From Pseudomonadota bacterium (GTDB taxonomy: Bacteria > Bdellovibrionota > Bacteriovoracia > Bacteriovoracales > Bacteriovoracaceae): a stretch of DNA of 62,926 bases. Made by a program: the position numbers and the translations under genes. Every line of letters starts with the position of its first letter. The first letter of the stretch is position 1. Location: the NCBI GenBank assembly GCA_027487685.1, contig JAIYDC010000088.1, positions 1-62,926 on the forward strand. Reading direction: 5' to 3'. Below, piece after piece: positions 1-14,237 of the stretch. Below the pieces are notes generated by a model that was not told the DNA's origin, did no database searches, and saw only the letters and a list, made by a program, of their open reading frames with translations.

Positions 1-2
1 AA

Positions 3-95
3 GATGCCTGCACCAGTTTCTTTCGCTACATCAGGAAGTACCGGGACGAGCTGTCGACTCTGTTGACGGATGAGTTTCAAGTCCTCGGCACTTGA
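3..95 (+). CDS. C-terminal end of an unidentified gene cut by the window edge
   Basis: One frame stays open from base 3 to a TGA at 93-95. It gives a charged helical-looking tail containing FFRYIRKYRDELSTLL. The other two forward frames stop earlier or look less protein-like. Too little is present to name a family. The call rests on composition only and could be wrong. Confidence 0.4.
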   Translation, partial: DACTSFFRYIRKYRDELSTLLTDEFQVLGT

Positions 96-446
96 AAACT
101 AAACTGCGTTCAGTTTAGAATAACAGTGCCAAATAATTGATTTTAACTTGGGTAATTAAACTGCCCTGGATTTGATTTGTCTTTAAGTACGAGTAGAATT
201 TTTCATTTAGAAAGAGCAGGCTTAATCCCTTTAAGCTTAGAAGAGAGATGGATGAGAAACTCAATAGGTTCTACACTTTTGTAGATAATTACCGAAAGGC
301 AGCCAACGATGTGGCTGCCTAATTAACGGAAAGCGTCTAAGTGTCTCTATTCAATGGTTCAATACGCAGGGTCCCAGTCCAGACACCACCCTTTTTGCGC
401 ACTCATTTCTTGTGGCTTTCTAGAGCGCCATTAGTAAAATGAATTC
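96..446. other. Intergenic region with a small hairpin and a doubtful 24-codon ORF
   Basis: About 350 bases of A/T-rich sequence without a convincing gene. A perfect inverted repeat (GGCAGCCA at 298-305, TGGCTGCC at 312-319, 6-base loop) is followed by TAATTAAC, not a run of T, so it is a weak terminator candidate. A 24-codon ATG frame at 248-322 overlaps the hairpin. It has a purine-rich stretch upstream but no homologue I recognise, and I do not call it a gene. Confidence 0.4.
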
Positions 447-2657
447 ATGATAGAAGTCTTTAGGAAAAGCGTGCACATGCTCCATCGTGGGCTACGCATT
501 CTGTTTCATCTTTCCTTTAAACACTTTAAGCTGACATGGTTGGGTTTGGGCCTGATTTTGTTACTAGCTTTGACCCAACTGCATAAGCTGAAATTCTTAG
601 TTATGCTCTCTGATCTTTTGGATCAGGACTTTCAGACTTACCCGCAGTTCCAAAAATTGAACACTGACTTCGACGAAGAGAATCAGAGCTCCGTCTTTAT
701 TCGGAATCAGGACAAGCCAATCACTTTCCAGCAGCATTGTCTATTAATTAGATGGCTTACCAAGGTTCATCTGGGGCAGACACAGATTGCTCGCATTTAT
801 TCCTCCTATGGTTACCGAGAAATCCTGGAAGAGAAGGACGGATTTAGTTTTCGGCCGGTATTAGTACAGGATTGTGAGAAGAGGGAGCTGGGAACGGCCG
901 AACTAAGCCAGCAACTGCAAAAGCTCGCACAGAGTCCTAGCGGTGTCGTGCTTACCAATAAAAGAAAAGATGATGTATTTGCCAGTTTCTATTTAAGAAA
1001 CTTACCGGAAAAGGGCATGTTCGGTTCCTTTGATACCACTGCCTATGAGTCGCTCCAAGCATCGTTTCGAGACCAAGTCCTGAGTAAGGAGCCGAGTCTC
1101 AAAGCAACCTGGGTTGGGATTGGGACTTATCAGTATTATCTCCAAAAGGCCTATGAACAGATGAACTTCCTGAACATCATTACGGTGGTGTTTGCCCTCT
1201 TGGGATTTAGGTTCTTCTTTGGCCGCTGGAAAAGTGGCATGATCTTTCTAGCGACTTATTTCATTTCCTTGACAATCATCTATGGCTTCATGGCATTTAT
1301 GGGATTTCCGGTGGATTCCCTCTCGGCGGCGATGCCAATCATGCTTCTGATTGCAACCCTTGAAGACTACATCTACTTCATCGTCCTATACCATCGACAA
1401 AGATCAATAGTCTCTTCTTTCCAAAAAATCATGGTCCCAGGTTTTTACACCAGTCTTTCAACCAGCATTGGCTTCTTGACCCTTTACCTTTCGGATCTGG
1501 CAATAATTCGTCGATTCGGACTCATTTGCTCTGTGGGGGCGATGATCGAATGGTTTATGATTTACCTGACGCTACCAAAGATATTGGTTCTTTTAAAACG
1601 CCGGTCTAATGGATTTACTCTCGCAGAAATTCCCGAACAAATCCAGCACCTATCACAAGCGGTGGCCCGACTCAAACTACCACGCTGGTGCACATTTCTG
1701 GCGCTTATTCCGTTTGTCTATGTTCTCTTTCAGTACCGAGGCAATCTGTCCATCAAGGACTCACCTGAAGCCGTGTTCCCCAAAAGTCACATAGTCACGA
1801 AGTCAACTGAGGAACTTTTGAAGCAAAGAAATTGGAAGTCAGAGGTAAGTTTGATCTTCCCCCAGCCTTTGTCAGAGGACAGAAGAAATGAGGTAATTGA
1901 GGACATCATGAGAACCATACCTGAGTTTGTGGCCAATGAAGGATTTCAGGAGACCAAGACTCATTTGCTACTTCCAGTTGCGAATCCTTCGCGCAAGAAG
2001 CTTGCTAGAAGTTTGATGGATTCAAGTCCCATCAGCGAGAGATGGATAGCTAGAGACTCGGGGACAGAAAGAGTTTTACTTTTCTCACAAACTACTGACG
2101 TGGTCCGAGTCTCCAAGATGCGGAAAGAGGTTTCAGCGATCTGTGGAGAGGATTGCTATCTGGCGAACATCCTGGTTTCATACAGTGAATTTGGGCTCAA
2201 AATCCTGGATACATTGACTGACAGTTTTGGGATGAGCATGATCGATATCTCACTGTTAATTCTGCTTCTGTGTTTATTCATGAACGTGAAAGATGTAATC
2301 CCACTGATCTTGTCCTCGCTTTGGGGCCCTGTTACTTTAATAAGCATTTTCCTATTCTTTGACATCGGAATATATTTTGCTACGAGCGTAGTCATGTCGG
2401 TCTTAGTCGGAATTTCCGGCGACAATGGTCTTCATTTTCTTTTTGCCAAGGGCAAGAATAAGTCATTGGAAGACGGAATCGATGAAATGGGGCTAGCTTC
2501 AGTTTTAACCATGGTTTTAATGTTCATCCTTTGTTCTTCCTTTCTATTCTCTGATTTTGAAGGTGTACGCAAAATTGGGCTCATGATGATGAGTGGCTTT
2601 GTTTTAGGCTTGATAGGGGACTTAGTAGTTTTGCGCGGACTTCTGAGTAAAATCTAA
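447..2657 (+). CDS. RND/MMPL-family membrane exporter
   Basis: A 736-aa integral membrane protein with the RND layout. There is one N-terminal membrane helix (about residues 27-48), a soluble domain of roughly 180 residues, a block of about five helices (about 240-390), a second soluble domain, and a second five-helix block (about 590-735). The helix-block motifs SAAMPIMLLIATLEDYIYFI and GISGDNGLHFLFA match the MMPL/SSD class, which usually moves lipids or hydrophobic compounds across the inner membrane using the proton gradient. The next gene downstream is a sterol-desaturase-type hydroxylase, and ketosynthase genes follow on the other strand, so a lipid product is a reasonable but inferred cargo. 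The start is not secure: ATG 447 has no clear ribosome site, and ATG 477 is an alternative. Confidence 0.75.
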   Translation: MIEVFRKSVHMLHRGLRILFHLSFKHFKLTWLGLGLILLLALTQLHKLKFLVMLSDLLDQDFQTYPQFQKLNTDFDEENQSSVFIRNQDKPITFQQHCLLIRWLTKVHLGQTQIARIYSSYGYREILEEKDGFSFRPVLVQDCEKRELGTAELSQQLQKLAQSPSGVVLTNKRKDDVFASFYLRNLPEKGMFGSFDTTAYESLQASFRDQVLSKEPSLKATWVGIGTYQYYLQKAYEQMNFLNIITVVFALLGFRFFFGRWKSGMIFLATYFISLTIIYGFMAFMGFPVDSLSAAMPIMLLIATLEDYIYFIVLYHRQRSIVSSFQKIMVPGFYTSLSTSIGFLTLYLSDLAIIRRFGLICSVGAMIEWFMIYLTLPKILVLLKRRSNGFTLAEIPEQIQHLSQAVARLKLPRWCTFLALIPFVYVLFQYRGNLSIKDSPEAVFPKSHIVTKSTEELLKQRNWKSEVSLIFPQPLSEDRRNEVIEDIMRTIPEFVANEGFQETKTHLLLPVANPSRKKLARSLMDSSPISERWIARDSGTERVLLFSQTTDVVRVSKMRKEVSAICGEDCYLANILVSYSEFGLKILDTLTDSFGMSMIDISLLILLLCLFMNVKDVIPLILSSLWGPVTLISIFLFFDIGIYFATSVVMSVLVGISGDNGLHFLFAKGKNKSLEDGIDEMGLASVLTMVLMFILCSSFLFSDFEGVRKIGLMMMSGFVLGLIGDLVVLRGLLSKI

Positions 2658-2724
2658 CCGTAAAAACGTGGAAAAAGTATTTCGGTGCTAGGAAAGACGA
2701 AATACAGCATGCTAAAATCTAAAT

Positions 2725-3507
2725 ATGGATCATGTCATTCAGTTTCTGATCGAACACATCACCTGGTTTCCAGTAATCCTATTTTTATTTCTATCCCTTC
2801 GCTACTTCTTAATCTCATCAATTATGTACGTCTCATTGTGGTTTGTATTTTCTAAGGCCTTAAAAAAAAGAAGAATCCAAGAAGGTGCTTTGCTCAAGAA
2901 CCAGATTTGGAACGAGATCCGTCATTCGCTTGAAAGCTTTGCTGCCATGTCGGTGATTTGCACACCGCTTTTTTACCTCTACGCCCATGGAAAAACCACC
3001 ATCTATCATAATTGGGTCGACTATCCACTCTGGTGGATCCCCATCAATATTTTAATTTTTTTCTTCTGGCATGATTGGACTTTTTATATCCACCATCGCT
3101 GGTTGCATACTCCCTGGGCGTATAAGCACATTCATTATGTGCACCATATTTCGCGCATCCCTACTCCCTTTGCCTCACATGCTTTCCACTGGGTCGAGGG
3201 AGCGATGCAAATTGTTTTCATCTATCCTGTTGTCATGTGGGTACCAATGCATCCATGGACTTTCGTGGGATTCATGGCGTTGTCGGCCTTCTTTGCCTCG
3301 TGGGGACACTTTAACTATGAGCTCATGCCACTTGGTACCTGGCATGCCTGGTGGGGAAGTTGGGTTACAACATCCACTCACCACAATCTGCATCACAAAT
3401 ACAACAATGGTAATTTTAGTCTTTATCTCAGAAGCTGGGACAGGGTCAATGGGACTCTTCATCCTCAAACCGAAGAGCGCTATGCTCAGTACTCGAAAAA
3501 AGACTAA
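2725..3507 (+). CDS. Fatty acid hydroxylase / sterol desaturase family membrane enzyme
   Basis: A 260-aa membrane diiron enzyme. The family His clusters are all visible: HDWTFYIHHRWLH (about 115-127), HYVHH (about 137-141) and STHHNLHH (about 216-223). Hydrophobic helices lie at about 10-45, 70-85 and 100-115. The family hydroxylates or desaturates lipid chains, sterols or carotenoids at the membrane using O2 and two irons. It lies 67 bases after the RND exporter on the same strand, so the two may be co-transcribed. Its stop overlaps by 4 bases the stop of a decayed acyl desaturase on the opposite strand. The substrate cannot be read from sequence; the setting suggests an acyl chain made by the neighbouring ketosynthases. 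Confidence 0.85.
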   Translation: MDHVIQFLIEHITWFPVILFLFLSLRYFLISSIMYVSLWFVFSKALKKRRIQEGALLKNQIWNEIRHSLESFAAMSVICTPLFYLYAHGKTTIYHNWVDYPLWWIPINILIFFFWHDWTFYIHHRWLHTPWAYKHIHYVHHISRIPTPFASHAFHWVEGAMQIVFIYPVVMWVPMHPWTFVGFMALSAFFASWGHFNYELMPLGTWHAWWGSWVTTSTHHNLHHKYNNGNFSLYLRSWDRVNGTLHPQTEERYAQYSKKD

Positions 3508-4091
3508 TCCTTTTCTACTTTCAATACGGAAACTATTCCTAGGAGAGCGAGCAATTTCAGCATCTGATAGCTGAGATCTATTTGCCAGAAGCCCTGTCCG
3601 TAGCGCGCTAGCGAAGCTGAATCATTGTGATTCACATGTCAGACCTGGCCGTAGGCCAATATTCCTATCAACCGGTTATTGGTGGCCAGATGTTTTGATC
3701 TAGGGTTTCGCGATCCAAAAAAATGACTAATGCTATCAACGGCATCGCCCAAATTGTAAACGTAGATGTAGCAAAAGAAAGCCAGCTGAACGCCAGCTAG
3801 ACCTGCATGAATATAGGCCCGAATAAATGCGCCAAGGGTATAAACGGCCACCAGGGTAACATAAACTTTAGGTCTACTCATCCAGGCCAGCACGGGATCG
3901 CGTGAGACGTCCTTTGCATAATCATTGTATTCCTGATTGGTCAGTGGACGATGATGGCCATCAAAAAGTGATCGCATAGGGCCGCCCAATGCATAGAAAA
4001 TGGAGATCAAAGTCTTACGGGTCTGCAGGTACCAACCGTTATGTGCCCATCAGAAGCCTGCCATATGGGGAGAATGAGGGTCTAGAGAAGT
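3504..4091 (-). pseudogene. Decayed membrane acyl-lipid desaturase (two in-frame TGA codons, N-terminus missing)
   Basis: Read on the minus strand, one frame runs from TSLDPHS (starting about 4091) to a TAG at 3504-3506 and matches the second half of acyl-CoA/acyl-lipid desaturases. It is broken by TGA at two places where the family has Trp: GF*WAHNGW (family GFxxxHxGW) and GQV*HVNHN (family GExWHNNHH, stop at 3639-3641). The tail ARYGQGFWQIDLSY is also family-typical. The N-terminal third, with the first two His boxes, is absent because the frame runs straight into the end of the upstream gene (stop at 4082-4084). The last His box also has Asn for its final His. The unbroken part is 123 codons from a TTG at 4010. 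I read it as a pseudogene left by a deletion. Confidence 0.75.
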
Positions 4092-4939
4092 TCGGATCTT
4101 GCCTTCAGCTCCATCAGCATGGCATGTAGGACTTCGGTGGAGATACTGTGCAGGACCAATCGGTATCCAGCTTCGCCCGTCACCGCCGGCACCAGAGGAT
4201 GGCGATTATTTACTAAAAAGAGGCGGTTATGCATATTCAGAAGATTCGCAAAATACAACCCAACGGTTTCATCAAGCTGCAGACTTTGAGTCGAGCGCCA
4301 AAACGCCCGGTCAGTCTGGAGGAACTGGAACAACGGCAGGATAATTTCAATCGCAGTGTGAATGTCGATAAAATTAAGACGCCCGTGGCGAAACTGCTCG
4401 ATTGTGATTGGCGGGTGATGAAGGTCAGAGAAATCAAAGCTCGATCTAGGACTAACTTTTAGGTTCTTCTCTTTTAATTCCCGGTTAAGGTCTATTACGA
4501 AATTATACAGATTGATGTCATGCTTAAGAATCAGATTGTCCTTAAAGGCATCTAGATCGGGCGGATAAAGAGGTTCGGTTTCTATCTTCACCCCTTCGAT
4601 ATTATGCTTGAGAAATTCTAAGATCTGAGAGCCTAGATGAAAGTGACGAACAAGAAGATAATTTCCTTCAGGAGTCACGAATCTTTTAAGTCCCCAGGTA
4701 ATAATTCCGTGCATTAACAGAGAGGAAGTCAGGGCATTAGGGAAGATTATCTTATAAAGCTGAATTAATCCCATCACCACTTTGGAAATGGGACGAATGA
4801 TGGGCATCAGAAACTGCCGGCTCCAGCGACTGGTATCAGCGATCCATGAGTCCCTGGCCAGGGGATCTAGCGGAAGATTAGCATCGTCCTGAAATGCAAG
4901 CCACGGATCAGGATCTTCCCGACGATGTATTGTCCTCAT
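4082..4939 (-). CDS. Family-unknown 285-aa protein co-encoded with the ketosynthase fusion
   Basis: A mostly helical protein without signal peptide. Residues about 45-85 are fairly hydrophobic (PISKVVMGLIQLYKIIFPNA) and may sit on the membrane. Scattered His residues occur (LVRHFHLGSQ, LHHPPITIEQFRHG) but I see no known catalytic signature. It resembles proteins I associate only loosely with the DUF6999 label, so no function is assigned. The ATG overlaps the TGA of the upstream ketosynthase fusion (ATGA), so the two are translationally coupled and probably act together. The 3' end abuts the desaturase remnant, where a deletion may also have altered this protein's C-terminus. Confidence 0.7.
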   Translation of the reverse strand: MRTIHRREDPDPWLAFQDDANLPLDPLARDSWIADTSRWSRQFLMPIIRPISKVVMGLIQLYKIIFPNALTSSLLMHGIITWGLKRFVTPEGNYLLVRHFHLGSQILEFLKHNIEGVKIETEPLYPPDLDAFKDNLILKHDINLYNFVIDLNRELKEKNLKVSPRSSFDFSDLHHPPITIEQFRHGRLNFIDIHTAIEIILPLFQFLQTDRAFWRSTQSLQLDETVGLYFANLLNMHNRLFLVNNRHPLVPAVTGEAGYRLVLHSISTEVLHAMLMELKARSELL

Positions 4940-6828
4940 TCAAAAACTTCTTCCATTTGACGGCAGTAGAGGTCGGCCACTCGATCTGCGGTCTCAACCA
5001 TCCTGCGTGCCAGTGATCCATCGTGGTCGGATTCCAGCACGATTTCGACCGCAATCAACCAACGGTGAATATGGTGTTCATCATTGGCACCGTGATACTG
5101 CAAGAACTTAAAGCAATCATTACCTAGACTCAGCTGTGAACGCACCAGGGGCAACATGACCGGGATAATTCGCTGACCTGTTCCTTCGATAATGTAAATT
5201 CCACCAAGGAGATCGACTGCATTAACTGAGTTGGCCCGACTGTACATAAAGTCATTCAATGCTTTTCCTCCGGCATTGAAATTTAACTCATCTGCGAATT
5301 GCACCTTACCACCGGCATTCTGATAATCTTGGAAGAGAATCTTCCAGTCGTTTTGCTCTTCGGAAGCATGAGTTTCAATTAGTGCTTTCAAATCCACAAA
5401 TGGGTCCTGCATATTCGATACGGCCGTTCTCATCCACTTAGAGCCCTGTCTTACTTGCGGGATCCAGTTTTCAATCCACTTGATATAGTCTTCTGTTAGA
5501 AGTTGGTTACGGGTGATCTTGGAGAAATATTTTGTGCGCCAGACTCGCGAGCGGTAGCCATGCCATACATCGGCCAGATTCAACAGTAGGTTACGGAGTT
5601 TGAGTGAATACTCGTCACTTGCCTCGACCGGAGCTATCGATTTTGTGATAAATTCCTCATTGGTCATGCTGGTCTTCTCGGTATCAGAAGCCGTGACTTG
5701 TCCTAGTGAAGCATCTGGTCCTACCACTTCGAACTGTACGAAGCCTACCGAAAAACGGCCTGATTCAGGGATGAAGCATAGGATCTTCTGACCAACTTTC
5801 ACTTCCCTTTCTTTCAAGAAGTCATCGATCATAACAAAGATCGAAGCCGAGCCCATATTCCCCCGAGTCTTCAAGTTTGAATACCAACGATCCTTAGGAA
5901 TCATCAGATTCATTTTTTCTAACAGACCCTGCATGACGCCTTCAAATTTCTGAGAAGAGTAATGCACAATAAAGTGATCCACTTCATTGGGATTGATTTC
6001 GCCTTTTTTGATAAGAGCGGCGTACTCAAACAAGCAAACTTCAAATAGCTGAGGCAGCATCCGAATGTTCTGACGCAAAAGATAGCTTCCTTGCTTTTCT
6101 GCATCCGCCATGGTCGGGTAATCATAGCAAGACTTGGAATGATCACTTATCGGGCTACCGATGTACATACAAGTGGCGTAGTCACCACTGAATGATTTTA
6201 AATGAATATTTGACACTTTAAGAGACACCTTGGAAGGACTAGGTGTGCTAGAGAGCACCATAGAACCCGAGCCATCAGAGAGCATCCAGCGCAAGAAGTG
6301 AGAATCGAAGTCCACGTCATAGCCCTCAACGAATCGGGAGGTCTTAAAGAGACGTGAAGGAAACTCACACCCAGAAACAGAAGCTTTCTTGATACGACCT
6401 AATTCTATGGCATCCGAGGCGTGTCTTAGGGCCGCAATGCCGGAAGCACAAATACCTATGTGAGTACTGGTCTCCATGGGCTGAGCCTTAAGCTCACCTT
6501 GAACCATATTGGCAAACCCCGGAACGATTAGGTCACCGCCACAAGTACCGGTGGCGATCATCTCAATTTCATCTAACCCTACGTTGGCATCTTCAAGACT
6601 CTTAGTGACTGATCGTGAGGCCATCTGCACCAGACTCAATTGTGTTTGCCCTTCTGGATTGATACCATAGTAACGAGTCTCAATCCCGTTCTCTTTCAAG
6701 ATCATATTCTTGAGTTTGGCTGAACGGGTATTGATAGGTTGAATGTACTTATCAATATCTTCATTACCAACGGGTCCTCCTGGAAGGTAGGAGCCCGTGC
6801 CGATAAGATAAACCATTTTATAAGCCAC
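4936..6828 (-). CDS. Beta-ketoacyl synthase III fused to a helical oxidase-like domain
   Basis: 630 aa, two domains. Residues 1 to about 370 are a KASIII thiolase fold with the nucleophile Cys in IGICASGIAALRHA, the His in DHFIVHYSSQKFEG and the Asn in TRGNMGSASIF, so the catalytic triad is intact. After a linker, residues about 400-630 are helical. They carry the acidic/His pattern FLQYHGANDEHHIHRW and VEIVLESDHDG, which resembles heme-oxygenase-like diiron oxidases (the TenA/UndA type of iron-containing redox enzyme). KASIII enzymes condense two acyl units; oxidases of the second type cleave or oxidise acyl chains. A fused condensation and oxidation step is inferred. The start is GTG 6828 with AGGAG eight bases upstream; ATG 6816 is also possible. 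It overlaps the next gene by 4 bases. Confidence 0.8.
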   Translation of the reverse strand: MAYKMVYLIGTGSYLPGGPVGNEDIDKYIQPINTRSAKLKNMILKENGIETRYYGINPEGQTQLSLVQMASRSVTKSLEDANVGLDEIEMIATGTCGGDLIVPGFANMVQGELKAQPMETSTHIGICASGIAALRHASDAIELGRIKKASVSGCEFPSRLFKTSRFVEGYDVDFDSHFLRWMLSDGSGSMVLSSTPSPSKVSLKVSNIHLKSFSGDYATCMYIGSPISDHSKSCYDYPTMADAEKQGSYLLRQNIRMLPQLFEVCLFEYAALIKKGEINPNEVDHFIVHYSSQKFEGVMQGLLEKMNLMIPKDRWYSNLKTRGNMGSASIFVMIDDFLKEREVKVGQKILCFIPESGRFSVGFVQFEVVGPDASLGQVTASDTEKTSMTNEEFITKSIAPVEASDEYSLKLRNLLLNLADVWHGYRSRVWRTKYFSKITRNQLLTEDYIKWIENWIPQVRQGSKWMRTAVSNMQDPFVDLKALIETHASEEQNDWKILFQDYQNAGGKVQFADELNFNAGGKALNDFMYSRANSVNAVDLLGGIYIIEGTGQRIIPVMLPLVRSQLSLGNDCFKFLQYHGANDEHHIHRWLIAVEIVLESDHDGSLARRMVETADRVADLYCRQMEEVFE

Positions 6829-6843
6829 AGCTGACTCTCCTAT

Positions 6844-8409
6844 TTAGAATAAGACTGGAAAGAGAGCAGCTCCTAGGATATTCGCTCCCCAAGACTGGGA
6901 GAGAATCCTCGCGGCCTTCGGAATGTCTTTTTGATCAATATCGGGAAAGTAAGGGAGGTATGCACCCAGGTTCCAGGTCTTAGGGTTTCCGTACTTGTAG
7001 TTCCTGTATTCTTTCCTTGTGATCGGTTCTACCAATGACTTAGGCCCCTCTTCAAAGCCAGTGGCCAGGAAAGCCTTTAAATCTTCAGGTGGATTGTTAT
7101 AGATCGCTTGGAAGTTGACTTGAATTTCCTGACCGTCGACTAATGAACTTCGCACACCATGACCTTCAATTAAGTGAGAAATGTTTTCAAAAGAAGTATC
7201 GATGGTGCGTGTGAAAGGAATAAAAGTTCTTGGATCCAGGAGCGGGAATTGGTTCCCAATGGTTGAGTCTTCATTCTTAGTGAAATTCCATGCAATGCGG
7301 CCCTGTCTTACTCCTTCTCTGAACCACGGGTAGGCAGCACGGGTCCAGGTAGCTCCACCGTCTGGCAGTTCACTCGTCTTAGGAATGATACGGAAAAGCT
7401 GTCTGGCATTACGAACTATGCTCACGCGGTCTTTTGCCGTCATCTTGTCCGGATTAGAGGACAATAAATTATTGAAGCCCATGACGGTAGCAACACCATT
7501 GATCGTCTTAAGCAATCCGTTCCAGTTATAAGCAAGTGCGACATGTAAGCTACTAATGGTAAGGTTCGCAGAAGAAATGACAGAGTGAACTTCTCCGCGG
7601 CCCATCACTACATAGCGATCTTGCTCATCCACAATCTTTGAAGTGCTATAGATCAGTTTGTTATCAAAATAAAAGGGTCTGAACTCTGGATTTATCTTTC
7701 GTTCACCATTAACGGTGGCATACACAATGTTATTCATGCGAGTATTGAACTTTTGCAAAGAAGGAAGAAGTTCATTCTTAACGAAGAAATAAAGATCATT
7801 ATCGGTTTTTATGTCTGCGAGCATGCCAACATATGGCTTGGCTACAAAATCAAATCCAGACACCCATTGTGGTGTAGGAACAAAAGCATTCACTCCTGCG
7901 TTAGCGTTGCGCAACCACCCGACAATAAATGAATGAACAAAAGGAGCATCAGAATCTTCCATCAAAGGACGAGCGCGAAAAAAAAAACCTCGCCATGGAA
8001 GGAGGAGTGCCAATTGAGCAGCTACCCACTTAGACTGAATTGATAGCTTGTTAAAGTTAATGTCGTTATTGTATTTGGCAACAAGAATGGCCAGGTCAGT
8101 TTCAGTTCTTACGCCAGGGAGAATGGTGGCAGTTTGTTTGCCGTCCTTCCAAGTATGACCACCGATCAATTCTGAACTTAAATTTTTAAAGTCGTCATTA
8201 AAGGTCTCTGCATAATCTAGGCGATCTATGGTGGCCACCTTCCGAAAGGTGGATGATTTTTTAGAAGTCTTTAGTTGTTCCTGGTAAGCTTCTTCGGTCA
8301 AAAAATTATCAGAGGGAATTGGTTTGCCAAACGTCATGCTACTGGCGTGCACTCCATTATGTATGAAAAAAGACACTAAAAAACTGCTAATAATTGCTAG
8401 ATTACTCAA
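6844..8409 (-). CDS. Secreted orphan protein, 521 aa
   Basis: It begins with a short hydrophobic stretch typical of a Sec signal (SNLAIISSFLVSFFIHNGVHA, cleavage probably after HASS). The remainder is a large soluble domain without repeats or lipobox. I do not recognise the family. It has a central hydrophobic segment LALLLPWRGFFFRARP and a region with two His (GEVHSVISSANL, SSLHVALAYN), but not the spacing of lipoxygenases or known oxygenases. The start is TTG 8409 after AGGGAGGGG. It ends 15 bases before the ketosynthase fusion on the same strand, so it is probably the first gene of that operon and an exported partner of the same pathway. Confidence 0.7.
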   Translation of the reverse strand: MSNLAIISSFLVSFFIHNGVHASSMTFGKPIPSDNFLTEEAYQEQLKTSKKSSTFRKVATIDRLDYAETFNDDFKNLSSELIGGHTWKDGKQTATILPGVRTETDLAILVAKYNNDINFNKLSIQSKWVAAQLALLLPWRGFFFRARPLMEDSDAPFVHSFIVGWLRNANAGVNAFVPTPQWVSGFDFVAKPYVGMLADIKTDNDLYFFVKNELLPSLQKFNTRMNNIVYATVNGERKINPEFRPFYFDNKLIYSTSKIVDEQDRYVVMGRGEVHSVISSANLTISSLHVALAYNWNGLLKTINGVATVMGFNNLLSSNPDKMTAKDRVSIVRNARQLFRIIPKTSELPDGGATWTRAAYPWFREGVRQGRIAWNFTKNEDSTIGNQFPLLDPRTFIPFTRTIDTSFENISHLIEGHGVRSSLVDGQEIQVNFQAIYNNPPEDLKAFLATGFEEGPKSLVEPITRKEYRNYKYGNPKTWNLGAYLPYFPDIDQKDIPKAARILSQSWGANILGAALFPVLF

Positions 8410-8579
8410 GACCCCTCCCTTGTATAATGCTAAATATTAGAATACTTAAAGAGAATCCAGTCAAACTAAAATTTCTTTAGACAACGGAACCAAACCTTTC
8501 TAAAATAGAACATGTCCAAGACTAAGTTTTTTTCAATAGCAAAAAATGCCTCATCGGTAAAACTGAGTACAGGTTAAAA

Positions 8580-9590
8580 ATGTACAGCTCAGAAATCATT
8601 GGTTCAGGAATGTTCGTTCCTCCACAAGTCATAACCAATCATGATCTTGAAAAAATCATGGAGACTAGCCATGACTGGATAGTCCAACGCTCAGGTATTG
8701 AAGAGCGCCGATGGGTGGATGTCGAAACTGCTACTTCCGATCTCGCCCAGAAGGCCTGTGCTTTTGCCATTGAAAACGCTGGCATCGATAAAAGTGAAAT
8801 TGACTGCATTCTAGTAGCGACAATGAGTCCCGATCATGACTTTCCGGGTGTCGGGTGCTTCTTGCAGCCCAAATTAGGACTGACAAAAATCCCTACCATC
8901 GATATCCGCCAGCAGTGTACTGGTTTTCTCTATGCCATGAGCATCGCAAACTCTTTCATACGTTCGGGAGAATATAAAACCATCTTGTTAGTGGGTGCTG
9001 AGATTCACTCAAAGGGTCTGGATAAGACAAGCCGCGGGCGCGATGTTTCGGTTTTATTCGGTGACGGTGCAGGGGCTATCATCATGAGACGAACTGAAAA
9101 CAATGATCCCAAAAAGGATTCATTTTTTATCTCCTCTCACCTCTTTACAGAAGGCGCTGGAGCTAAAGATTTATGGGCCCCAGCTCCCGGTTCGGCGATG
9201 GGGAATGAGCGGATTACTCATGAGAACATGAATAATAATCTCCACTATGCGTTTATGAACGGCAAAAAAGTTTTTGCCAATGCTGTGAGAAGAATGTGTG
9301 AAGCGCTCACTCTGGCACTAGATAAAAATAATTTCAAGTTAGAAGAAATTGATCTTTTTCTCTTTCATCAAGCCAACCTGCGCATCAATGAAATGATTGC
9401 TCAGGAGATGAAAATTCCTGAGTCGAAGGTTTTTAATACCATTCAAAAATATGGGAATACAACTGCAGGCACTATTCCCATTGGGATGGCAGAAGCAGTT
9501 AAGACGGGAAAGCTCAAGAAAGGCATGCTAGTAGCATCTGCAGCCTTTGGTTCTGGCTACAGTTGGGGTAGCTCGATTTACCGCTGGTAA
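8580..9590 (+). CDS. Beta-ketoacyl-ACP synthase III (FabH-like), cluster paralogue
   Basis: 336 aa, full FabH length. The catalytic Cys lies in IRQQCTGFLYA, His in LFLFHQANLRI and Asn in YGNTTAGTIPIG. VLFGDGAGA and the C-terminal AAFGSGYSWGSS are also family-typical. It normally condenses an acyl-CoA with malonyl-ACP. This copy is distinct from the fabH inside the fatty acid operon at 21.5 kb and is transcribed away from the secreted orphan/ketosynthase-fusion operon, sharing a 170-base intergenic region. Its A/T-rich codons fit the cluster, not the downstream housekeeping genes. It may supply a starter or a condensing step for a special lipid. The family is certain, the pathway inferred. Confidence 0.88.
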   Translation: MYSSEIIGSGMFVPPQVITNHDLEKIMETSHDWIVQRSGIEERRWVDVETATSDLAQKACAFAIENAGIDKSEIDCILVATMSPDHDFPGVGCFLQPKLGLTKIPTIDIRQQCTGFLYAMSIANSFIRSGEYKTILLVGAEIHSKGLDKTSRGRDVSVLFGDGAGAIIMRRTENNDPKKDSFFISSHLFTEGAGAKDLWAPAPGSAMGNERITHENMNNNLHYAFMNGKKVFANAVRRMCEALTLALDKNNFKLEEIDLFLFHQANLRINEMIAQEMKIPESKVFNTIQKYGNTTAGTIPIGMAEAVKTGKLKKGMLVASAAFGSGYSWGSSIYRW

Positions 9591-9727
9591 AGCAACTTCA
9601 TCATTTCAAGTTAGACTTGCCGTGCGCTTACTGAATTCGATCAAGGTCATACCTGCCGAATAACATAAAAAGCCGCAGCACAACTTCTCTAGGTCGATTC
9701 CAGTAAGCTCAAAGTTATCTCAAGAAG

Positions 9728-11379: not shown

Positions 11380-11892
11380 ATGTTTAAAAAGATTGAGTTT
11401 AAGGGTTTAAATTACGATGAGTTGGACCGGTACGACGCACATGACCTTAAACGTGAAAAGCTCCACACCTTCTATCAGACTTTTGACTTCATTAACTTGA
11501 TCAAGAGCTGGCCTGATCTTATTGGCCCATCACTCGCAGCTGTGACATGTCCCCTCAAGATCAAAGGCGACACACTGATTATCCTCTCTAAGCATGCTAG
11601 CTACTCCCAGAATATCTCTTTTTTGTCGGAGGAGCTAAAGCGGAAAATCTTCATCTTATTCCCAGAACTCCGTCCTGTGGTGAAGCGTCTTAACTTCCAA
11701 ACCCAGGAGAACTTTTTCCGTCCTGGGGGAAGGACGAGTGAGGTCGCAGCAGGAAAACCACCCGCACCGAAATTCCATCCACAGGACCCTCGCTATAAAA
11801 TTTTAAAGAGTGAAGCAGACCGCCTCTTCGCAGATGTGCCGGATCCTGAACTCAGGGCGATCCTAACCTCGATCTACATCCAGTCAAAGTAA
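11380..11892 (+). CDS. DUF721/DciA-like protein
   Basis: 170 aa. The middle part (about 35-105) has the DUF721 pattern: a W-x-D-(L/I)-(I/V)-G motif (SWPDLIGPSLAAVTCP), then KGDTLIILSKHASYSQNISFLSEELKRKI. DciA proteins recruit or load the replicative helicase in bacteria lacking DnaC. The C-terminal third is a proline- and charge-rich extension ending in a short helix. It starts 52 bases from the divergent lptE, and its last 41 bases overlap the 3' end of the methyltransferase gene on the other strand. The family is likely; the role in replication is from family knowledge. Confidence 0.72.
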   Translation: MFKKIEFKGLNYDELDRYDAHDLKREKLHTFYQTFDFINLIKSWPDLIGPSLAAVTCPLKIKGDTLIILSKHASYSQNISFLSEELKRKIFILFPELRPVVKRLNFQTQENFFRPGGRTSEVAAGKPPAPKFHPQDPRYKILKSEADRLFADVPDPELRAILTSIYIQSK

Positions 11893-12448
11893 CGAACGCG
11901 AGGTTTCCATCGCACGCCACTGAGGATTTAGTGCCCGCCCAGTGTTGCTCGAGCTCCCGGAGGATCCGTACGTCGTTGCGCACGACCAGAAAAGCGGACC
12001 CCTCGCTGGCCAGGGAACGCTCGATAGCTTTGAGGAATACTGCCCATCCGTCCCGAATAAAAGAGCGACAGAGTTCGCGCCGTGGATCAGAAGCAGGTCT
12101 CCCATGGCCGGGAAGAAAGTATGGAGGATTACTGACGATAAGGTCATAGGCCACTGCCGGTTTCCAGTCGCTGAAGGCAGAAATATGGACATTTGCAGAG
12201 ACCGTAGTCCGCAAAACTTGTGCGATGTTGAGCGCGAGGTATGGTTCCCATTCCGGCTGAACCTCAACGAGAGTCAGCTCTAAGGGTAAGATGGCATTGG
12301 CGAGTTCTATGCCAATCACACCTGACCCTGCTCCCAGGTCGAGAATCCGAATTGGTCTCAAACTACCGATGGCCCGAGTGACGAATTCGACGAGGCGAAG
12401 AGAATCCTCGTTAAGTCGATAGAAGTCAGGCTCCGCGTAAGTGCTCAC
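11852..12448 (-). CDS. SAM-dependent N6-adenine-type methyltransferase (TrmN6/PrmC-like)
   Basis: 198 aa. Motif I is ILDLGAGSGVIGIELA (about 35-50), followed by the acidic end of strand 2 (LTLVEVQPEW). The catalytic NPPY lies in DLIVSNPPYFLPGHG. NPPY methyltransferases modify adenine, glutamine or cytosine nitrogens. The N-terminal YRLNEDSLRLVEFV resembles the start of TrmN6, which methylates A37 of tRNA-Val, making that the best guess over PrmC or RsmC. The start is GTG 12448, overlapping the stop of the upstream gene (GTGA). The 3' end overlaps the convergent DciA-like gene by 41 bases. Confidence 0.78.
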   Translation of the reverse strand: MSTYAEPDFYRLNEDSLRLVEFVTRAIGSLRPIRILDLGAGSGVIGIELANAILPLELTLVEVQPEWEPYLALNIAQVLRTTVSANVHISAFSDWKPAVAYDLIVSNPPYFLPGHGRPASDPRRELCRSFIRDGWAVFLKAIERSLASEGSAFLVVRNDVRILRELEQHWAGTKSSVACDGNLAFVTLTGCRSRLGSP

Positions 12449-13509
12449 CTAAGGATGACCTCCGCCGTCTTACGGACAAGCGCCTCATCGATATCACCGA
12501 GTTCAATTAGTTTGTACAAGCAGAGCATAAACGAAGCCTCTGTCTCAAGGCCCTCTTTAAGAAACTTTCGTCGACCAGGAAGGAAGCTCTTACCAGAGGT
12601 GCGCGAGTAGAGGTCCGCCAGACGCTCATCATCCAAGAGGTAAATGAGCCAAAGTTGATCTTGAGCTTCCAGTCGCTTGAGCTCAGGCAGAAGCGCCTCC
12701 GAGATGAGAGGAGCGACGTCTATAAAAGGCCAAACCCAATAAGACTGCTCGGGAAGAGGGATACGTGGACCGCGAAGCTCACGAACCCGGAACATTTCCG
12801 GGAGGAGCGAGAGCCGCCGAAAATGGACCAGCTCAGGGGCCACGGCCAGTGTGAAACGCAGGTCGAGCTTAGCTTCGACTTCATTCGTATCTATCCCATC
12901 CAGCAGACGTAAAAGGCCCGGGTCGTTGTAATAGCTTCGGAGGTAGAGCACTAGAAGCTGAAAAATGCTTCGATCTGCTGGGTGCCGAGCTAGCTTTGAT
13001 AGAATTTGCTGTGCCTGATCTCGGGCAATCCGATGGTATCGACTCGCTCTGAAAGCAGATCTCTCCCAATTCAATCTCGGCGCTGTCTTGATAAAATCGC
13101 GCAAGATCCCATCAGACCGTGAAACATTTCCTATCATGAGGTACAGGTAAGACCGAAGGAGGAGCTCAGGTAGAGTGTCATCCGGAACCTCGCTCAGCGC
13201 CTCGATAATCCTATTTTTAACCTGGATATCTGTGATGAGATTGAACTGCGAATTAATGATCTCCGTAAGGAAAGGGGATCCAATTCTCTCCTCTTGAGTT
13301 GTCCCCTGAGATTGGAGCGATCCGATCCAACTCATCCACCGCTTCAGTGCATGGGCCTGTGGAAGTTTAACCACGCAGTCTCGGAGGCGAATGAGGAACT
13401 TCTCGTTGATAACTTCAGGGGGATGAAGAAGAACGCCCAATTGATAAATATCTGTGTTAAAGTCGGCACAAGTGACTTCATCTATGTTAAACGAACTGAG
13501 GACGCGCAA
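12445..13509 (-). CDS. Unknown helical protein, probably the C-terminal part of a frameshifted GYF-domain protein
   Basis: 354 codons from TTG 13509, but the open frame extends back to the A10 tract at 13574-13583 with protein-like sequence (ILEKLTLRPVAGLDGLRV) and no ATG or good ribosome site. The body is a string of amphipathic helices (LLLRSYLYLMIGNVSRSDG, LRLLDGIDTNEVEAKLDLRF) without Cys or a known signature, reminiscent of helical-repeat folds. The simplest reading is that it is translated by a -1 shift from the GYF gene, giving a 597-aa membrane protein with this part outside the cytoplasm. The function is unknown. Confidence 0.6.
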   Translation of the reverse strand: MRVLSSFNIDEVTCADFNTDIYQLGVLLHPPEVINEKFLIRLRDCVVKLPQAHALKRWMSWIGSLQSQGTTQEERIGSPFLTEIINSQFNLITDIQVKNRIIEALSEVPDDTLPELLLRSYLYLMIGNVSRSDGILRDFIKTAPRLNWERSAFRASRYHRIARDQAQQILSKLARHPADRSIFQLLVLYLRSYYNDPGLLRLLDGIDTNEVEAKLDLRFTLAVAPELVHFRRLSLLPEMFRVRELRGPRIPLPEQSYWVWPFIDVAPLISEALLPELKRLEAQDQLWLIYLLDDERLADLYSRTSGKSFLPGRRKFLKEGLETEASFMLCLYKLIELGDIDEALVRKTAEVILR

Positions 13510-13565
13510 ACCATCAAGCCCAGCGACGGGTCTCAGGGTGAGCTTCTCTAAGATAACGGCACTCT

Positions 13566-14237
13566 CTAAAAGCTTTTTTTTTTCTCTACGGGAAGGCCCT
13601 GGGCGTGTACCAAACTTACGAGAGTTGTCTGTGGTAAGGTTAGATCGGATCGAAATATCCGCTGAATGATACTTTTCCTGAAGTAGATCATAAGGAAGAG
13701 CATGATAAAGCCAAACGCTCCCGCGTAAATCAACCAGCGCTGTTTATTCAACTCCACAGACTCGGATGGGGGCTGAGACTTTCGCACCCTTAATGAGGGA
13801 TTAGTTTTTTTTTTCTCACCGCTAGCAGCGTCGATGGGGGCGGGGTTCCGAGGAGGTTGCACCTCCGGTCGAACCGGTGAAGGATCAGAGGAAGCAGGTT
13901 TCTCAACTGGAGAAGGCTGCTTTAAACCGGAGAGGTCTATCTGACCTACATGGGTTACGTGATCTCTGTCAGGAACAGGGGCATGCTCTGCCACTGGATT
14001 CGTAAGGACATCCTTGGCTTCGCTGATAGGATTAAAACACTGAATTTCCTCACCGATGAGAAAGCGCTGAACGAGGTCATCCTCACGTAGGTAGAACCAG
14101 TAACCGTTGCCGGAGCACACCTCATCATCGGCCTTAATAGATCCATTATGATAAAGCTCAAGTACCTTCTCTTTAGAGATGGGTCCGAGGATATGATTAG
14201 AGCGTGTCCGAATAAGCCAGTTTTTATCCATAATCAC
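13566..14237 (-). CDS. GYF_2-domain membrane protein, N-terminal frame
   Basis: 223 aa in the unshifted frame. Residues 1-55 are a GYF_2 domain (WLIRTRSNHILGPISKEKV, then GYWFYLREDDLV). Next is a long Pro/Ser/Glu-rich linker (about 60-165) and one membrane helix (LIYAGAFGFIMLFLMIYF, about 168-186), followed by about 35 residues ending EKKKSF at a TAG. GYF_2 domains are thought to bind proline-rich peptides. The start is GTG 14237, overlapping the mlaD-like stop (GTGA), or ATG 14231. Two A10 tracts occur in the gene: one inside the linker (13805-13814) and one just before the stop (13574-13583). The second allows a shift into the following frame. Confidence 0.75.
   Translation of the reverse strand: MIMDKNWLIRTRSNHILGPISKEKVLELYHNGSIKADDEVCSGNGYWFYLREDDLVQRFLIGEEIQCFNPISEAKDVLTNPVAEHAPVPDRDHVTHVGQIDLSGLKQPSPVEKPASSDPSPVRPEVQPPRNPAPIDAASGEKKKTNPSLRVRKSQPPSESVELNKQRWLIYAGAFGFIMLFLMIYFRKSIIQRIFRSDLTLPQTTLVSLVHAQGLPVEKKKSF
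13574..13583 (-). promoter_or_regulatory. A10 slippery tract, candidate -1 frameshift or transcript slippage site
   Basis: On the minus strand the codons read GAG AAA AAA AAA AGC TTT TAG. Slipping back one base, or adding one A to the mRNA, gives GAG AAA AAA AAA AAG CTT TTA. This removes the stop and enters the downstream 1.1 kb open frame. The joined frame from GTG 14237 to 12445 is exactly 598 codons. No ATG start or Shine-Dalgarno exists for the downstream frame. A sequencing or assembly indel in the homopolymer is the competing explanation. Confidence 0.6.

Follow-up and report, generated by a model that had tools for sequence, protein, structure and literature searches.

What does a bacterium make with a protein in which a condensing enzyme and an oxidase are joined in a single chain, and which of the genes around it belong to the same system? 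The question is raised by a 630-residue open reading frame on contig JAIYDC010000088.1 (assembly GCA_027487685.1, a Pseudomonadota bacterium placed by GTDB in the Bacteriovoracaceae), of which positions 1–62,926, referred to here as the window, were analysed. Its product carries a β-ketoacyl synthase III (KASIII, or KAS) domain followed by a domain of the heme-oxygenase-like diiron oxidase (HDO) type, and the next gene encodes a member of the Pfam family DUF6999. A preliminary description of the window had proposed a lipid or small-molecule cluster at 2725–9590 built around this fusion, to which it assigned a hydroxylase, a desaturase remnant, a secreted orphan, a second FabH and, just upstream, an RND exporter. 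The part of that cluster that stands is a core of KAS, HDO and DUF6999 with a hydroxylase as a frequent partner, and this cassette is real and has been repeatedly inherited in bacteria. The 6.9-kb extent is not supported: the exporter, the second FabH, the orphan and the remnant are absent beside other copies. On balance we think it probable, judging from the protein families, that the cassette is a compact lipid-modifying one in which the KAS condenses, the fused HDO oxidises and DUF6999 serves as an obligate partner.

The fusion and its DUF6999 partner

Family profile scans around the fusion covered seven proteins at 447–9590, and the lack of OleBCD and polyketide modules given in the preliminary description is covered by these scans for the seven only. 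The core occupies the following positions.

4936–6828, minus strand: KAS-HDO fusion gene, whole, 630 aa, GTG start
5713–6828, minus strand: KASIII domain, StlD/DarB-like, residues 1–372 (NCBIfam match, fold and triad)
5617–5700, minus strand: linker, fusion residues 377–404 (AlphaFold2 pLDDT below 50)
4939–5613, minus strand: HDO-type heme-oxygenase-like oxidase domain, residues 406–630 (PF14518, profile, conservation and model)
4082–4939, minus strand: DUF6999 gene, 285 aa (PF22523, E 7.2e-104)

Residues 1–370 of the fusion match the NCBIfam model PRK06816 of the StlD/DarB type (E 3.8e-97). The AlphaFold2 model of the fusion has a mean pLDDT of 85, and its top fold match is solved StlD (5gk2/5gk0; Z 48.6 over 362 residues, root-mean-square deviation 2.3, 31% identity), followed by AbyA1 (Z 38.9) and OleA (Z 38.6). 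The KASIII fold, with StlD nearest, is accompanied by the triad Cys127/His289/Asn324, which is invariant in all 40 of the aligned fusions from which residue conservation was taken; the active residues that the preliminary description had picked out in the fusion are therefore borne out. A KASIII that is 37% identical to the KAS domain is encoded on a mobilizable Streptomyces plasmid (L029, 9706–18144), in a run that also holds two acyl carrier proteins (ACPs), FabF, FabG, a P450, a flavin monooxygenase, an SCP2 protein and an unassigned 321-aa protein.

The nearness to StlD and DarB, in sequence and in fold, raises the possibility of an ordinary 2,5-dialkylresorcinol pathway in which a cyclohexanedione made by the KAS is aromatised by the HDO domain in place of DarA. 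StlD and DarB enzymes make cyclohexanediones, according to Fuchs et al. 2013 as cited in PMC4414361 and PMC3949708, and aromatising such products would need an oxidase. A Variovorax cluster called 'resorcinol' by antiSMASH, without similarity to known ones (PMC10946135), might be the same cassette if the two can be equated, the call being possibly one of a generic rule. Against this, the fusion scores 325.7 bits with the StlD/DarB family model (NCBIfam NF005293), under the curated cut-off of 450, and a Cellvibrio fusion likewise stays under it at 342 bits, whereas DarB proteins of the same phylum reach 542–545. None of DarA, DarG and DarH is among the seven proteins at 447–9590. By contrast, DarG accompanies DarB in loci L024 and L026 of the same phylum, and DarH does so in L024. 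In the KAS-domain tree the DUF6999-linked fusions form a clade of their own (99/100), apart from DarB. The low score and the missing neighbours together argue that this is not a standard dialkylresorcinol cluster, and filing it as one fails on both counts; we regard the resorcinol pathway as unlikely.

OleA, among the next-best folds, points to another product, a hydrocarbon or long-chain ketone arising from OleA-like head-to-head condensation followed by UndA-like cleavage or decarboxylation of the β-keto acid by the HDO domain. UndA, itself an HDO, decarboxylates fatty acids to alkenes (PMC13108848). StlD is clearly the better fold match (Z 48.6 against 38.6), and such a route seems improbable to us.

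The oxidase domain passes the PF14518 cut-off of 28.9 bits, with 29.6 bits for the whole protein and 32.3 for the domain alone, and 28 of 29 domain members match the same family. A profile of the 29 domains matches PDB 3dde, a solved heme-oxygenase-like fold, with E 5.6e-10, and residues 406–630 are modelled as all-helical. The fold search used the whole chain and its matches are all to KAS, so the HDO fold rests on PF14518, the profile and the helical model. These results, together with the invariant His, Asp and Glu residues described below, agree with the helical, oxidase-like domain that had been proposed for residues 400–630 of the fusion.

Candidate metal ligands, three histidines and up to four acids read from sequence, are H487, E491, D494, E548, H579, D583 and H586; the ligand set of HDOs is 3 His and 3 carboxylates on three core helices. 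They are invariant or nearly so in the alignment, His and acid residues being kept in 38–40 of the 40 fusions, and Glu548 and the motif H579-x3-D583-x2-H586 are conserved. Their order in helix alpha-1 is unusual: the 3dde segment HAHEEAGHE aligns with HA-x-x-E-x-x-D of the fusion, which would place Asp494 where the usual alpha-1 His stands, with His487 invariant. E491, D583 and H586 are altered only in two loci, L022 and L023, and there all three jointly, as expected if they formed one metal site. We read the pattern as a predicted diiron site with shifted ligand order. The two exceptions (L022:9083–10984 and L023:8791–10692, from genomes G261 and G259) are divergent KAS-HDO fusions with no DUF6999 nearby; they fall outside the clade of DUF6999-linked fusions and may form a lineage of their own whose oxidase differs or is inactive. 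The source genome encodes a second PF14518 protein, of DUF3050 type and without a ketosynthase, on contig C124 (L157:7987–8754), with an FA_desaturase about 1 kb away.

The altered residues of L022 and L023 also bear on the proposal that the HDO domain is non-catalytic or protective, perhaps curbing peroxide in the way suggested for DtpC, so that the cassette would be a condensing enzyme only. DtpC, an HDO-type protein to which no biosynthetic role has been assigned, does guard Acinetobacter against drying stress, but it is encoded with the catalase KatE and its paper mentions no ketoacyl synthase (PMC13232832). The near-complete conservation of the His and acid residues and the two membrane oxidative enzymes adjacent to the fusion make a protective role very unlikely. 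DtpC was also considered as a relative of the fusion and set aside, only the HDO-type domain being held in common.

Four bases (ATGA) are shared by the stop of the fusion and the start of the DUF6999 gene, so the two may be translationally coupled, in line with the coupled protein of unknown family that had been noted here. The 285-aa product matches PF22523 over model positions 1–275 of 275, with 347 bits against a cut-off of 27. Its model, computed like the residue comparison from an alignment without the Pseudoalteromonas plasmid row, is all-helical with a pLDDT of 90.4. A search by fold gave no confident solved relative (best Foldseek E 0.35, VIA-align Z below 3), and a sequence profile search gave none. 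Invariant polar residues include R98, H99, H140, D141, D192, D223, R260, H264 and E269, and look like an active or metal site. Identification of DUF6999 as a second HDO was rejected: the Foldseek rows for PolF, UndA and heme oxygenase are weak (E above 1), and hhalign against the HDO profile gives a probability of 0.1%. DUF6999 is not named in the literature searched, which covered few subscription papers.

Co-inheritance of the core and its neighbours in the window

A profile scan of genome contigs with the DUF6999 alignment gave 328 relatives, of which the best 80 loci were read (Variovorax, Achromobacter, Bordetella, Cellvibrio, Deefgea, Chitinimonas and others). The fusion lies directly before DUF6999 in all 80, and locus L081, at a contig end, shows part of the fusion. 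Homologues of FA_hydroxylase and of FA_desaturase (PF00487) are each present in 78 of the 80, in the order hydroxylase, desaturase, fusion, DUF6999 where the order was listed (loci of Variovorax, Achromobacter and Cellvibrio type); no further gene is conserved beside the core among these loci. Because the best 80 are close kin, an even draw of 398 Pseudomonadota genomes was made. DUF6999 is found in nine of them (2.3%), the ninth, G369, being the genome of L053, and KAS plus HDO stand directly upstream in all nine, as one open frame in seven and as separate frames in two (G595 and G740). The same fused frame recurs in 87 of 89 loci. On a Pseudoalteromonas plasmid, the one plasmid carrier found, KAS, HDO and DUF6999 are three separate genes in that order; viral carriers were searched for and none was found. 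The occurrence of KAS and HDO as adjacent genes in Pseudoalteromonas, G595 and G740, and as a fusion elsewhere, is a Rosetta-stone signal for a shared substrate.

Within the same phylum, five genomes (G201, G196, G247, G204 and G344) have fusions accompanied by both DUF6999 and FA_hydroxylase. In the control genome of Caulobacter vibrioides there are matches to DUF6999, PF14518, FA_hydroxylase and FA_desaturase; no link could be made between the cassette and the cold-induced Caulobacter sterol desaturase CCNA_01743 (PMC8552747). Co-occurrence elsewhere, on which the system claim of the preliminary description depended, is thus found for the fusion with DUF6999 and, in most loci, for FA_hydroxylase. 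A chance neighbourhood of unrelated genes, scarcely credible as the explanation of the cluster, is refuted for the core pair by its adjacency in the nine evenly drawn genomes and the best 80 loci. It does describe the orphan, the second FabH, the RND protein and the desaturase remnant. These genes and the hydroxylase, all of them present as first described (the RND type on a weak match), are arranged around the core as follows.

447–2657, plus strand: RND-type protein, weak HpnN/HAE3 match only
2725–3507, plus strand: FA_hydroxylase, membrane, sterol-desaturase type (PF04116, E 8e-23); probable accessory, convergent to the core
about 3577–4081, minus strand: remnant of an SCD-type fatty-acid desaturase, read directly, not counted as a working part
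6844–8409, minus strand: secreted-looking protein, 521 aa, no Pfam match over cut-off
8580–9590, plus strand: FabH, the second KASIII gene (TIGR00747, 345 bits against a cut-off of 292)

The orphan, the second FabH, the exporter and the remnant lie outside the cassette. Neither the RND protein nor the secreted orphan stands beside other fusion copies in the best 80 loci. Of 192 genomes examined in the phylum, 36 encode the secreted family, some of them several times, and in G344 its relatives are on contigs other than that of the fusion. The source genome has three FabH genes over cut-off, this one included. The desaturase remnant is a pseudogene, lacking its N-terminus and carrying two in-frame TGA codons where Trp is expected; seven other PF00487 matches are present in the genome. 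An origin of the remnant by decay of the operon desaturase is not supported: blast finds no match between the two, and a homologue of the operon desaturase was not found in the source genome. The window hydroxylase is closest to the second-type hydroxylases that accompany the fusion in relatives (34–35%). Contig C105 of the source genome has three FA_hydroxylase matches within 3 kb (11494–14199).

The window KAS domain and its G344 counterpart are sisters (100/99), inside the clade of 17 DUF6999-linked fusions. A search of 57 other relatives, including 25 members of the genus, found no DUF6999, and the first 9.6 kb have a GC content of 44%, compared with 51% for the remainder of the window. 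Together, tree placement, absence from relatives and GC contrast suggest, without proving, lateral arrival of the cassette or possibly of the stretch 1–9600. Within that stretch, the secreted orphan and the second FabH have low GC at third codon positions.

A predicted route to an oxidised lipid

The assignment of the cassette as a condense-plus-oxidise cluster of lipid type is well supported by the domain matches and conserved residues of the fusion and by its co-inheritance with DUF6999, and it probably makes an oxidised lipid. This partly supports the earlier idea of a modified acyl product from condensation and oxidation, with the reactions predicted from families and the exporter dropped as a part. 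The KASIII domain would carry out a Claisen condensation of StlD/DarB type between two acyl thioesters, with a product of β-keto, 1,3-diketone or cyclohexanedione type. The substrates would come from the general fatty-acid pool, since no ACP, ligase, acyltransferase or other gene is conserved beside the core. The product would cross the flexible linker to the fused diiron domain for O2-dependent oxidation, a step analogous to that of the separate aromatase (DarA, StlC) in resorcinol and stilbene pathways. DUF6999 may act as a further enzyme or as a subunit that handles the substrate, and the adjacent membrane hydroxylase and desaturase may tailor the chains before or after.

Several points weigh against this route. 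Both enzymatic steps and their sequence, like the substrates and the part given to DUF6999, are predictions from families. The score under the StlD/DarB cut-off means that the condensation partners may differ, and the motif H487-x3-E491-x2-D494 in place of the usual Glu...His points to an unusual metal site. The fold of DUF6999 yields no functional hint. The window hydroxylase is encoded on the strand opposite to the core, and the tree does not separate it from a paralogue.

A wider proposal, which we put forward tentatively and hold to be possible rather than probable, is that the cassette represents a widespread and previously undescribed class of bifunctional lipid synthases. In these, condensation of two acyl chains would be followed by oxidation at a diiron centre whose ligand order is changed, DUF6999 would be a third enzyme with a fold of its own, so far undescribed, and the products would be a new family of lipids for membranes or signalling, spread over hundreds of species of proteobacteria. 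The cassette is present in easily handled bacteria (Variovorax, Cellvibrio and Deefgea), so its product can be searched for at once.

Comparison with known systems

The individual families are known by name. In the literature searched, the three-part system, the fusion and the linkage to DUF6999 were not found, and nothing on point was met for ketosynthase-HDO fusions; the words 'ketosynthase' and 'fusion' are absent from the text of a 2026 HDO review. Through the cassette an orphan Pfam family, DUF6999, gains a place in a defined system of three parts.

The StlD/DarB ketosynthases share with the fusion the nearest KASIII fold, the Cys-His-Asn triad and the expected condensation of two acyl units; the fusion differs in its C-terminal HDO domain, its DUF6999 partner, its score under the cut-off and its own clade. 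OleA of OleABCD olefin synthesis is likewise a KASIII-fold enzyme, one that condenses two long acyl chains, but with lower fold similarity to the fusion. Among membrane enzymes of the FA_hydroxylase and FA_desaturase families, the window retains the PF04116 protein at 2725–3507, whereas the operons of beta- and gammaproteobacteria add a PF00487 desaturase, of which the window has a decayed remnant only, without match to that of the operons. The HDOs UndA, SznF, BesC and AetD and the solved 3dde resemble the oxidase domain in PF14518 membership, all-helical structure, the H-x3-D-x2-H motif and the conserved Glu548. They differ from it in the alpha-1 motif, and the fusion oxidase is placed behind a ketosynthase. 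Two well-studied classes, ketosynthases and heme-oxygenase-like diiron oxidases, are here joined in one chain, and the fused ketosynthase would directly indicate the substrate of the oxidase, which is usually hard to establish in the HDO superfamily.

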